Assembly: GCF_001982615.1 (NCBI RefSeq)
Contig: NZ_MLCO01000094.1
Span: 1-32,965, forward strand
Direction of reading: 5' to 3'
DNA: 32,965 nucleotides
From: Teichococcus deserti
GTDB taxonomy: Bacteria; Pseudomonadota; Alphaproteobacteria; Acetobacterales; Acetobacteraceae
The translations under genes and the position numbers were made by a program. Shown piece after piece: positions 2,510 to 7,395 of this stretch (its first letter is position 1; each line of letters begins with the position of its first letter). The notes beneath the pieces are model-generated. The model saw only the letters and a list, made by a program, of their open reading frames with translations. It was not told the origin of the DNA and did no database searches.

Positions 2510-2932
2510 TCAGGCCCGGGCGGGAATGGCGCAGACCGACAGGTCGGGCTCCGGCCCTTCGCGCGGCGTCTCGCCCAGCGCCGCGAGCTCGGCCGCCGAG
2601 AAGGCGCGGGAGCGGGTGAGGAAGCGCTGCTCCCGCCCGTTGTCGAGCGAGAACATGCCGCCGCGCCCGGGCACCACGTCGATGATCAGCTGGGTGTGGC
2701 GCCAGAGCTCGAATTGCGCGCCGCCGATATAGGCGGGGGCGCCGCCGATCTCGCCGAGCCTGACGTCGCCGTCGCCGATCAGGAAGTCGCCCTGCGGATA
2801 GCACATCGGCGAGGAGCCGTCGCAGCAGCCGCCGGACTGATGGAACAGCACCGGCCCATGATCGGCGACGATTTCTTTCAATAGCGCCAGCGCGGCCTCG
2901 GTCGCGAGAACCCGTTGCGGTGCCTCGGTCAT
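2510..2932 (-). CDS. DUF779 family protein, companion of aldehyde dehydrogenase
   Basis: A 140-residue protein of the DUF779 family. Characteristic features are HQSGGCCDGSSPMCYP (a cysteine-rich motif), a central FELWRHTQLIIDVVPGRGGMFSLD stretch given here only in part, and an FLTRSRAF tail. These proteins have no established biochemical role but are very often encoded next to ExaC/ThcA-type aldehyde dehydrogenases, exactly as here. The start at 2932 was chosen because AAGGAG lies 8 nt before it; a longer frame upstream (to 2965) lacks such a site. The gene sits 58 bp downstream of the dehydrogenase on the same strand, with a strong hairpin between them. The paired cysteines suggest metal binding or a thiol role; that is speculative. 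Confidence 0.85.
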   Translation of the reverse strand: MTEAPQRVLATEAALALLKEIVADHGPVLFHQSGGCCDGSSPMCYPQGDFLIGDGDVRLGEIGGAPAYIGGAQFELWRHTQLIIDVVPGRGGMFSLDNGREQRFLTRSRAFSAAELAALGETPREGPEPDLSVCAIPARA

Positions 2933-2953
2933 GGCGGTGGCTCCTTGCGCATC

Positions 2954-2977
2954 GGAGGGGGCCAACGAGCCCCCTCC
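2954..2977 (-). promoter_or_regulatory. Intercistronic hairpin between aldehyde dehydrogenase and DUF779 gene
   Basis: A perfect 9-bp inverted repeat, GGAGGGGGC / GCCCCCTCC, with a 6-nt loop lies in the short gap between the two minus-strand genes, just ahead of the ribosome site of the second. No U-run follows on the transcribed strand. It could attenuate transcription or stabilise the upstream message so that the two proteins are made in unequal amounts. Confidence 0.5.
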
Positions 2978-2990
2978 CCTGTCAGAAAAA

Positions 2991-4508
<1,518 letters not shown>

Positions 4509-4614
4509 GGCGGTCGCTCCCCTGCGTGGCGTCCCTGGACGGGCGCCTTTCTGTTGTTATCTGGCGTCGCGGCGGCGGGCCTGTCAGCGGGGCGCCCGGC
4601 GCCTTGGCGAAGGA

Positions 4615-4636
4615 CCTGTCGCAGGGCTGCGACAGG
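4615..4636. promoter_or_regulatory. Palindromic operator upstream of the aldehyde dehydrogenase
   Basis: The 10-bp arms CCTGTCGCAG and CTGCGACAGG are perfect inverted repeats separated by GG. The site lies in the 139-bp gap between the aldehyde dehydrogenase and the regulator gene, about 107 bp before the dehydrogenase start, a normal place for an upstream activator site. The adjacent Fis-type regulator is the obvious candidate to bind it. I looked for a sigma-54 promoter (GG-N10-GC) downstream of it on the minus strand and found none. Confidence 0.6.
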
Positions 4637-4647
4637 TGTGCGGCGCA

Positions 4648-5616
4648 TCATCCGCGGGGCGCGCGCGTCCCGAGCCCGAGCCGGGCCATCTTGCGGTGCA
4701 GCGTGGCGCGGCTGATGCCGAGCAGCCGCGCCGCCGCCGAGACATTGCCGCCCGAGCGCGCCAGCGCCCGGCTGAGCACGCCGCGCTCGGCCTGGTCGAG
4801 CTGCTCGGCCTCCTCCGGCGCCAGCAGGCTGGCGGCGGGCAGGCCGGCGGCGATGGCCTCGGCCGAGATGCCGAAGGCGCGGCGGGCGGCGCGGTTGGCG
4901 CCGATCACCAGGTCGTCGCGGTCCAGCGCCAGCAGGGCGCCGTCCTGCGCCGCCTCGCTGGCCAGCAGGATGCGGGCGCCGGCATAGGCCTGGCGGAACT
5001 CGGCGGCCTCGATGCGCCGGACCGCCTCGCCGACCGCATTGGCCAGCAGCGCCACCACGCCGCGATCGACGTCGCCGCGGCAGCTGGAGACGTCGAGGCA
5101 CCCCACCAGCCGCCCGGCATGGTCATGCAGCGGCGCCGTGCTGCAGGACAGCCCAGTGTTGCGCGTGTAGAAATGTTGGTCGCGATGGATGGTCAGCGCC
5201 CGGCCCTCGGCCAAGCAGGTGCCGATGCCGTTGGTGCCCTCGGCGCCCTCGCTCCAGACGCAGCCGGTCCAGAGGCCCCATTGGCGGAAGCTGGCATCGT
5301 CGCCGGCGCGGCCGCGGCGTTCCAGCGGCACGCCCTCGGCATCGGTCAGCAGGATGCAGCAGCCGCTTTCCCCCACCGTCTCCAGCAGCCGGTCCAGCAC
5401 GGGGGCGGCGGCGCGCAGCAGCGGCGCCATGCGCTCCCGCGCCTCGCGCAGCCGGGCTTCCTCCAGCCAGCGGGGCGGCCGCGAATCCTCGGGGTCCAGC
5501 CCATGGTCGCGGGCCGAGCGCAGCCAGGAGGCGGCGATGCTGGAACGGGCGGCGGCGGAATGGTCGCGCAGCATGGCCTGCACGCGCGCGGCATGATGGA
5601 CAGGGGTGGCCTGCAT
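4648..5616 (-). CDS. AcoR-like regulator: GAF, PAS-like and Fis-type HTH, no AAA+ domain
   Basis: This 322-residue protein has the N-terminal half of AcoR-type activators. It opens with an IAASWLRSARDHGLDP segment, then a GAF domain (about 75-200) with the typical WSEGAEGTNGIGTCLAE motif, and then a PAS-like part (about 215-265). It jumps directly to a C-terminal Fis-type helix-turn-helix, NVSAAARLLGISRATLHRKM. The sigma-54-contacting AAA+ ATPase that AcoR carries between these parts, with its Walker A and GAFTGA motifs, is absent without any break in frame. It therefore cannot activate sigma-54 promoters in the standard way and probably acts as an ordinary activator or repressor of the neighbouring aldehyde dehydrogenase. 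GGAGG stands 7 nt before the ATG. The function assignment rests on domain content and neighbourhood. Confidence 0.85.
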   Translation of the reverse strand: MQATPVHHAARVQAMLRDHSAAARSSIAASWLRSARDHGLDPEDSRPPRWLEEARLREARERMAPLLRAAAPVLDRLLETVGESGCCILLTDAEGVPLERRGRAGDDASFRQWGLWTGCVWSEGAEGTNGIGTCLAEGRALTIHRDQHFYTRNTGLSCSTAPLHDHAGRLVGCLDVSSCRGDVDRGVVALLANAVGEAVRRIEAAEFRQAYAGARILLASEAAQDGALLALDRDDLVIGANRAARRAFGISAEAIAAGLPAASLLAPEEAEQLDQAERGVLSRALARSGGNVSAAARLLGISRATLHRKMARLGLGTRAPRG

Positions 5617-5796
5617 CGCTTCCTCCGGACGGGTGGCGGGCGGCCCCTTGGGCAGGGCTCTGTCAGCCGCAGAGTGGCATGGCCGCAGGGGGGTGGCCCA
5701 GGATTTTTACCGTTTCGCGCGCGCCGGGGTAACGAGCCAAGGCCATGCCCGCTCTCGCCGGAAGAATCCCAATAATAGCGTATGGCGCAAAATAAT

Positions 5797-5818
5797 GGAT
5801 GGCTCTCCGATGCCATCC
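5797..5818. promoter_or_regulatory. Inverted repeat in the leader of the acidic repeat gene
   Basis: GGATGGC and GCCATCC are perfect 7-bp arms around an 8-nt spacer, just after an AT-rich run (AAAATAATGG). It could be an operator or an RNA hairpin about 290 bp ahead of the small gene. No protein can be assigned. Confidence 0.35.
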
Positions 5819-5932
5819 GTTGGGGTTCCGCCGCGATAATACCGAGGCCCTTCGCCGCGAAAGCGTCACGAAGGATGAATCCGATTGGAATCAGGTCGCT
5901 TCCGAAGTCGGTTCGATCGTCTTTTCAATTGA

Positions 5933-5944
5933 AACGCGGCGGAA
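5933..5944. promoter_or_regulatory. Palindrome TTTCAATTGAAA
   Basis: A perfect 12-bp palindrome in an AT-rich pocket about 165 bp before the acidic repeat gene. Such a site is unusual in DNA of this GC content and is a reasonable operator candidate, but nothing identifies the regulator. Confidence 0.35.
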
Positions 5945-6108
5945 AGCGCGGACCTGGCCTTTGCGATAACCTATCCTTTATTGGGCTTTCCATCGTTTCG
6001 GGGATGCAGCGCCGAACCGCCGTGCTTTCATCCGGTTTCCCCCGCGTGCAACCGCCGCGCGGTCCTGGCGCGCAACAGGCCGCCAGCCATCCAGAAAGGA
6101 GACCCGCC

Positions 6109-6363
6109 ATGACCAAGCCCCATGACGACGGCCCGATTGACCCTCCGGTGCAGGAGGTTCCGGACATCAACATCGATATCGACCTGGGGAACATCCTGGG
6201 CGTCTTCGCCGGCAACATCAGCATCGGCGACATCAACCTGGGTGACATCAATATCGGCGACATCGCGGTCGGCGACATCAAGGACAACCAGCTCGATCTC
6301 AGCGACCTGCTGGATATCGGCGGATCGATCTCCGGCAACTTCTCCGACTGGCTGTTCGGCTGA
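6109..6363 (+). CDS. Small acidic GDI pentapeptide-repeat protein, unknown function
   Basis: I do not recognise this 84-residue protein. The start is well supported: AAAGGAG ends 7-8 nt before the ATG. It has 15 Asp and 1 Glu against 2 Lys and no Arg, so it is strongly acidic. Isoleucine is the other dominant residue. After a proline-rich N-terminus (PIDPPVQEVP), residues 35-59 form five tandem pentapeptides: GNISI, GDINL, GDINI, GDIAV, GDIKD. A second Asp/Leu-rich stretch (QLDLSDLLDIGG) and the end FSDWLFG follow. There is no signal peptide and no membrane helix. The period of five, with inward-facing Ile/Leu and Gly-Asp turns, would suit a small beta-solenoid, possibly cation-binding; this is inference. 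The gene stands alone between a long leader and the terminator of purC. Confidence 0.78.
   Translation: MTKPHDDGPIDPPVQEVPDINIDIDLGNILGVFAGNISIGDINLGDINIGDIAVGDIKDNQLDLSDLLDIGGSISGNFSDWLFG
6211..6285 (+). repeat. Five tandem 15-bp coding repeats (G[ND]I-x-x)
   Basis: Five in-frame 15-bp units start at 6211, 6226, 6241, 6256 and 6271, each beginning GGC/GGT-[GA]AC-ATC. Units two to five all start GGYGACATC. They encode the pentapeptide repeats of the acidic protein. Third-position changes between units suggest an old duplication kept by selection at the protein level. Confidence 0.85.
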
Positions 6364-6373
6364 CGTCGGACAC

Positions 6374-6407
6374 AAAAAGGGCGCGGCGGGTCTCCCCGGC
6401 CGCGCCC
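6374..6407 (-). terminator. Rho-independent terminator of purC
   Basis: Read on the minus strand, a perfect 9-bp stem GGGCGCGGC/GCCGCGCCC with an 11-nt loop is followed directly by TTTTT. It lies 11 bp past the purC stop codon. On the plus strand it also follows the acidic-repeat gene by about 15 bp, but there it has no T-run. Confidence 0.88.
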
Positions 6408-6417
6408 TGTCGCCGCC

Positions 6418-7395
6418 TCAGCCGCGCATCAGGTGGGACAGGTTGCCGCGGATGCGCTCCAGCACGGTGCCGGGCAGCGGGGCGGGCTCGAAGCGCTGGC
6501 CGGTGATGGCCTCATAGGCCTGGATATAGACGGCGGCGGTGTCGAGCACGAGCTGCTCGGGGATCTCCGGGATCTCGTCGTGATAGGGGTCGCAGCGCGC
6601 CGCCACCCAGGAGCGGACGAAATCCTTGTCGAAGCTCTCCGGGCGCTGGCCGGCCTCGAAGCGCGCCTGGTAGCTGGCGGCCTGCCAGTAGCGGCTGCTG
6701 TCGGGGGTGTGGATCTCGTCGGCCAGCACGATGCGGCCGCTTTCGTCCGTGCCGAACTCGTATTTGGTGTCGGCCAGGATCAGCCCGCGCTCGGCCGCCA
6801 TCTCCTGCCCGCGGGCGAAGAGGGCCAAAGCGTATTCGCTCAGCTGCTGCCACTGCGCCGGCGTCAGCAGCTTGCGCTCGATGATCTCGGCCGGCGTCAG
6901 CGGCGCGTCATGCTCGCCGTCATAGGCCTTGCTGGTCGGCGTGATGATCGGCTGCGGCAGGCGCTCGTTGTCGCGCATGCCGTCCGGCAGGGTGATGCCG
7001 TACATCTCGCGCTGCCCGGCCTTGTAGAGCGTCAGGATCGAGGTGCCCGTGGTGCCGGCCAGATAGCCGCGCACCACGATCTCCACGGGGAGGATCTCCA
7101 GCCGCTTGCCGATGACCACGTTCGGGTCCGGATAGCTGATGACATGGTTCGGGCAGATGTCGCGCGTCTTGTCGAACCAGAAGCGGGCGATCTGGGTCAG
7201 CAGCTCGCCCTTGAAGGGCACGGCGCAGAGGATGCGGTCGAAGGCGCTCAGCCGGTCGGTGGCGATGATCACCCGGCTGCCGTCGGGCATGTCGTAATTG
7301 TCCCGCACCTTGCCGCTGTAGTGGTTCGGCAGCTCGGCGATGGTGGCGTCGCCGAGGATGCGCTGCGCCGAGGCGCGGAGGGTGGCGGGGTCCAT
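6418..7395 (-). CDS. purC: Phosphoribosylaminoimidazole-succinocarboxamide synthase (SAICAR synthetase)
   Basis: PurC joins CAIR and aspartate with ATP in step eight of purine synthesis. The 325-residue protein shows the family signature in order: GKVRDNYD near the N-terminus, [11 protein letters not shown], the VRGYLAGT motif, [10 protein letters not shown] and [14 protein letters not shown]. The length matches the longer form of the enzyme resembling yeast Ade1, rather than the ~250-residue bacterial form. GAAGGA lies about 9 nt before the ATG. It is monocistronic with its own terminator. Finding a purine-synthesis gene about 7 kb from a plasmid-type origin is notable; it could be the only copy or a second, long-form copy. 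Confidence 0.95.

Follow-up and report, generated by a model that had tools for sequence, protein, structure and literature searches.

A probable small acidic pentad-repeat gene, apparently restricted to one Roseomonas lineage, and the possible export of its product by a type I route

The window analyzed here, a 32,965-nucleotide stretch of Teichococcus deserti DNA (assembly GCF_001982615.1, contig NZ_MLCO01000094.1, positions 1 to 32,965), contains a short open reading frame (ORF) that is very probably a real gene. As far as sampled it appears to be restricted to one small lineage, and the make-up and C-terminus of its predicted 84-residue product resemble, at the level of sequence comparison, those of the RTX (type I secreted) proteins encoded in the same genome. 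We see about an even chance that the product is a substrate of type I (ABC exporter) secretion that lacks RTX nonapeptides and is confined to this lineage. Within the terms and library searched, and judging by title or abstract start, no paper on this protein was found.

The gene and its predicted product

6109..6363 (including stop), plus strand: acidic pentad-repeat ORF, 84 aa; ortholog at L002:3956-4210
6095..6101, plus strand: ribosome site AAAGGAG, 7 nt 5' of the ATG and the same in the sister species
6112..6159, plus strand: N-terminal stretch, Pro-rich and fast-changing, residues 2-17
6211..6285, plus strand: five pentads, GNISI GDINL GDINI GDIAV GDIKD, residues 35-59
6340..6360, plus strand: C-terminal end FSDWLFG, last seven residues

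The ORF extends from an ATG at 6109 to a TGA at 6361-6363, and its assignment as a gene follows from a GC3 of 0.88 together with host-like codon use in the sense frame only. The synonymous-codon score of the sense frame is 0.491, using a codon table built from ten neighboring genes that themselves score 0.40 to 0.75, and the other five frames score from -0.41 to -1.59. A codon-use gene caller (594,702 bases of the 6.25-Mb genome) called exactly the 6109-6363 ORF, and the ribosome site, called excellent in a preliminary description of this DNA, is the AAAGGAG listed above, a good one. The gene is presumably transcribed and translated.

The predicted protein (8.8 kDa) contains 15 Asp, one Glu, two Lys and one His, with no Arg or Cys, which agrees with the earlier count of 16 acidic residues against two lysines among 84. 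A pI of 4.05 is printed for it, likely a program floor given that seven of 12 RTX proteins print the same value. The five tandem five-residue repeats described previously are also present, one GNI pentad starting at residue 35 being followed by four exact GDI pentads starting at residues 40, 45, 50 and 55. The period-5 self-match of the protein is 19, a value reached by 16 of 100,000 shuffles, and codons vary silently among the repeats (GGC/GGT, AAC/AAT), so that the pentad repeat is kept at the protein level and is not a fresh DNA duplication.

Relationship to known repeat families

The preliminary description recognized no family, and this holds: no family passes the cut-off in a Pfam scan, NCBIfam gives no match, the best PHROGs match has 13 bits (E 0.08), and a search of solved structures returns nothing better than E 2.7. 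The nearest Pfam family is Pentapeptide_2 (PF01469), at 16.7 bits for the protein and 18.2 for its ortholog against a curated cut-off of 26.4, and the protein thus lies outside it. With this family of mycobacterial PPE-MPTR XNXGX repeats it shares the period of five and the N-x-G spacing (residues 35-55), but it has five pentads where the model has eight, described in PMC4858275 as eight XNXGX units, and it has no PPE domain.

PF00805 does not match the protein at E values up to 10. As in PF00805 proteins such as MfpA and Qnr, the period is five and a D precedes the central hydrophobic residue (GDI versus A(D/N)L); unlike in these proteins, G replaces A and I replaces L or F. Pentapeptide-repeat proteins are described as recognized by eight or more contiguous repeats with four per coil (PMC8145042), a number that the five pentads do not reach, which places the protein outside this family too. 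The preliminary description suggested a mini beta-solenoid, which may or may not be the fold: with four pentads to a coil, five would barely exceed a single turn of the helix, and for such a repeat even a confident AlphaFold2 solenoid would be weak evidence according to PMC11795689. PF00353 likewise has no match at E values up to 10 and no GGxGxDxUx nonapeptides are seen by eye, so that in the absence of these tandem repeats the protein is not a member of the RTX family.

Alternatively, the product could be an acidic mini-protein that stays in the cytosol and, as a DNA mimic or inhibitor, binds a partner that is basic or itself binds nucleic acid, in the manner of the larger pentapeptide-repeat proteins MfpA and Qnr with gyrase; a gyrase role of pentapeptide-repeat proteins is described in PMC12997753. 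The 16 Asp and Glu versus two Lys, the weak Pentapeptide_2 resemblance and the lack, by eye, of an N-terminal signal peptide are all consistent with this, but the number of pentads is below the eight that define the family, no partner gene adjoins the ORF, and the RTX-like tail and composition described below would be superfluous. We regard a partner-binding role as unlikely, and find nothing specific in favor of the nucleic-acid mimicry proposed previously.

Resemblance to RTX proteins of the same genome

A PF00353 search of the T. deserti genome gives at least 149 matches (150 of 317 candidates scored), and the G015 genome is similarly rich in RTX sequences (at least 148 matches, 150 candidates scored). 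Composition was compared within 474 genes called in the window and in 40 fetched stretches, several of which had been picked for RTX matches; the 12 genes with three or more RTX motifs constitute the RTX set, and the 461 others, excluding the ORF, the background. Lys and Arg account for 2.4% of the ORF product, compared with means of 10.1% in the background, where none of the 461 is as low, and 5.2% in the RTX set (range 2.8 to 8.6%). Its net acidity of 0.167 is equaled or exceeded by a single background gene, with the RTX set ranging from 0.072 to 0.181. The absence of Cys is common to 91 of the 461 and is not distinctive. Like the RTX proteins of its own genome, the predicted protein is acidic, very low in Lys and Arg, and has Gly/Asp repeats; unlike them, it has pentads and no GGxGxDxUx nonapeptides, and it has only 84 residues versus 197 to 1,379 for the 12 RTX genes, some of which are cut by stretch ends.

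A second point of similarity is the C-terminus. Among the 11 distinct RTX C-termini that are readable, DHFLFS, GDILFAA, DHVIFG and GDFLFA resemble the SDWLFG of the ORF in having an Asp ahead of hydrophobic residues and F-[AGS], and others are unlike it. This comparison is post hoc, having been prompted by viewing the tails, and was guarded by a profile, shuffles and a background. The profile has seven positions and eight residue classes and was trained, without the ORF, on 24 tails (31 distinct before collapsing), 16 from the T. deserti genome and eight from G015. The ORF tail scores 6.2, which none of the 461 non-RTX genes reaches, the nearest (5.5) itself coming from a fragment of an RTX gene. 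Of the 24 RTX tails, each scored with a profile that excludes it, 15 are above the background 95th percentile and one attains the ORF's score. Composition alone does not explain the score, since it is reached by 3 of 20,000 shuffles of the ORF and by none of 64 internal cut points. With a profile from own-genome tails only, two of 20,000 shuffles and one of 461 genes reach the ORF, and the result is weaker with the eight G015 tails only (90 of 20,000 shuffles, one of 461 genes and one of 64 cut points).

The last 20 residues of RTX proteins are described as enriched in D and F and depleted in R, K, E and P, with Dxx[FI] frequent (PMC8861453). The corresponding segment of the ORF lacks all four depleted residues and contains DWLF. 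It ends in FG and so does not have the terminal pair [FLI][VAI] given in the same source, a pair present in two of the 12 RTX genes and 12 of the 461 others. Tail resemblance is in itself no proof of secretion.

Flanking sequences and gene neighborhood

5955..6108, plus strand: leader block adjoining the ORF, 83% identity to the sister species
6378..6408, plus strand: G+C-rich hairpin between the ORF and the convergent purC
6418-7395, convergent with the small ORF: purC, 325 residues
4648-5616, minus strand: GAF + Fis-type HTH regulator
2991-4508, minus strand: aldehyde dehydrogenase
2510-2965, minus strand: DUF779 protein

The intergenic stretch 5' of the ORF is 492 bp in length (5617-6108), close to the leader of about 490 bp with inverted repeats reported previously. 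Its alignment with the sister species is good at ~5617-5735 and 5955-6108 and the middle between these is unalignable; some of the inverted repeats (e.g. 5794-5821) fall within this middle part. A search of six genomes gave no further strong copy of the leader block at 5955-6108. In both species it contains GATA-N3-TATC (5965-5975) and AACCG...CGGTT (6015-6037), which may be regulator sites. A sigma-70-like promoter was sought in 5600-6500 and none was found. In both species the ribosome site is paired in the predicted fold of the 5' leader (z -2.4 and -2.6), but a regulatory leader was dropped from consideration because z is only -0.7 for a longer part of the leader in the window and because, among 18 control gene starts in the window, 11 are equally paired. 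On the other side of the ORF, the G+C-rich hairpin was not scored as a terminator, as it is not followed by a T run.

Divergent from the small ORF is a minus-strand row (2510-5616) of the regulator, aldehyde dehydrogenase and DUF779 genes. The ped cluster of Pseudomonas is described as including a pentapeptide protein, PedD (PMC12997753); a tie of the small ORF to the aldehyde dehydrogenase cluster through this analogy has no sequence evidence and was rejected. Also rejected, by eye only, was a role as a peptide natural-product precursor or a double-glycine leader: the neighbors scanned are metabolic or regulatory, and the DIGG at residues 69-72 does not fall in the register of the leader motif.

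Distribution

Homologs of the ORF are present in two of 17 genus genomes, those of T. deserti and Roseomonas sp. 18066, and none was found in the other 15. Complete absence from close relatives, which would have spoken against the preliminary description, is thus not seen, because Roseomonas sp. 18066 has an ortholog, albeit the only one. Wider genome samples, which overlap one another, give matches at E 0.01 in five of 397 genomes for the family and five of 385 for the class, in each case the species' own and four judged to arise by chance; two of 395 genomes match in the order sample, and in the phylum sample one of 398, its own. The eight weak candidates (four family-level and four class-level) were dismissed as homologs by eye, not by a family search. 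Among these chance matches are a coiled coil resembling SMC, an N-terminus resembling that of RpoN, a repeat of NPNVT, an open frame that is probably no gene, and frames of low complexity, of which some run antisense to other repeat genes. A plus-strand frame from 1264 in L032, a distant genome within the class, has a signal-peptide-like start and many RDVPE-like pentads, and the weak profile match sat on the strand antisense to it.

A scan of a species-genome collection with short exact peptides confirmed one locus among 223 seeded stretches, and plasmid and phage records searched with the ORF gave no match. A viral contig (L008:5001-5084) has an open frame of ~1,800 residues in which PDINIDIDLG matches the ORF at all ten residues, probably by chance since eight of the ten were the search seed.

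A check anchored on purC covered the 12 of 17 genus genomes with this form of the gene (E 1e-20), in which the ORF and the regulator were compared with ~1,500 bp 3' of purC (555 bp in one). Strong matches lie downstream of purC in the two species only, and the next regulator match has an E of 0.002 and 27% identity. The 325-residue purC is absent at E 1e-20 from five of the 17 genomes, one of which is only 71% complete, and these five may have another form of the enzyme.

Conservation and selection

The syntenic ortholog in Roseomonas sp. 18066 (L002) has 74% identity over 84 columns with no gap. The loci L002 and G015:C1 very probably come from one genome and hence represent one independent ortholog, not two. 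Differences to the ortholog affect 11 of 17 residues at positions 1-17 and 11 of 67 at positions 18-84. NG86 dN/dS is 0.148/0.267 for the whole ORF and 0.086/0.129 for its core; the neighbors purC and the regulator give 0.038/0.217 and 0.041/0.216, respectively, and the 84-residue protein evolves faster than they do. When the core substitutions are placed at random in the sense frame, equally few differences result in 12% of placements and equally conservative ones in 0.28%. Together these comparisons moderately support purifying selection on the predicted protein.

The rate of change also bears on a second alternative, that this is a young orphan gene that is translated but has acquired no settled role, and that owes its acidic repeats and hydrophobic tail to its recent origin. 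Such a gene would fit the occurrence in only two species, the dN of 0.148 versus ~0.04 in the neighbors, and the nearly unconstrained N-terminal 17 codons. It accounts poorly for core changes that are more conservative than chance, for the absence of indels in the 252 nt of the ORF when there are several in the flanks, and for pentads that are nearly unchanged and a last seven residues that are identical, and we doubt that this is the explanation. It is highly improbable that an RNA or an antisense gene, and not the 84-residue protein, is what has been conserved: the two species share one open antisense frame, which is conservative over the whole ORF (0.8% of placements, sense 0.09%), and silent divergence in the core is low (dS 0.129 versus 0.217 in the neighbors), but this frame is unconstrained in the core (12% of placements), its codon score is -0.41 versus 0.49 for sense, an Rfam search finds nothing near gathering score, and both the ATG and the ribosome site that are conserved are those of the sense frame.

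A model for type I export

We favor the reading in which the ORF product is a type I secretion substrate. RTX proteins are described as using an uncleaved C-terminal signal and an ABC exporter and as nearly always acidic, and predicted members can be shorter than 100 residues (PMC3034196). RTX segments are reported to lack order when calcium is absent, chiefly because of charge repulsion, and to fold on meeting calcium outside (PMC4642704). A PrtD-type exporter above the family cut-off is encoded at one locus in the T. deserti genome (G000:C201:287-1909) and two in G015, and 14 control genomes have no such locus; an exporter of this kind is therefore present in the organism, at a locus unlinked to the ORF. 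The window's contig has no exporter and no RTX match among the matches listed (150 of 317 RTX candidates scored).

The lack of nonapeptides and of the terminal pair counts against the model, as do further comparisons. The RTX signal is described as ~60 residues long (PMC3034196), versus seven in the tail match of the ORF, and an association with cargoes larger than 50 kDa is described for exporters that have a C39-like domain (PMC8277102), versus 8.8 kDa here. Substrates of the HasA type lack RTX repeats, as does the ORF, a likeness at the level of description. HasA is a larger, heme-binding protein. As an RTX-free substrate it uses the same kind of type I route (PMC8277102).

In the proposed mechanism, negative charge would keep the protein unfolded in the cytosol, and an ABC exporter would recognize it by the C-terminal region ending in FSDWLFG, such that it leaves the cell in a single step. 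On the outside, the Asp residues that recur at regular intervals in the GDI pentads could be neutralized by divalent cations, and the chain could then collapse to a short beta-rich unit, either free or surface-bound. Export, cation binding, fold and an external role are all presumed, and we offer only tentatively the more specific proposal of a minimal type I cargo, composed of a cation-dependent GDI pentad unit and an export tail, that is recent in one Roseomonas lineage. The preliminary description had envisaged binding of Ca2+ or other cations and coating of a surface; both of these putative properties fit the evidence for type I secretion, and overall its interpretation is partly supported, with the RTX-like make-up and C-terminus as an addition to it.

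If the product is exported, it would be a natural minimal type I substrate with neither nonapeptides nor a passenger domain, and what an ABC exporter needs for recognition could be tested on a very small gene. The minimal-cargo proposal, if true, would give a measure of how small a module of repeat plus tail can be and still be accepted by an RTX-type exporter, and would mean that pentads are able to stand in for RTX nonapeptides. Export would also mean that a new secreted protein can arise in one small lineage by way of an existing export route.
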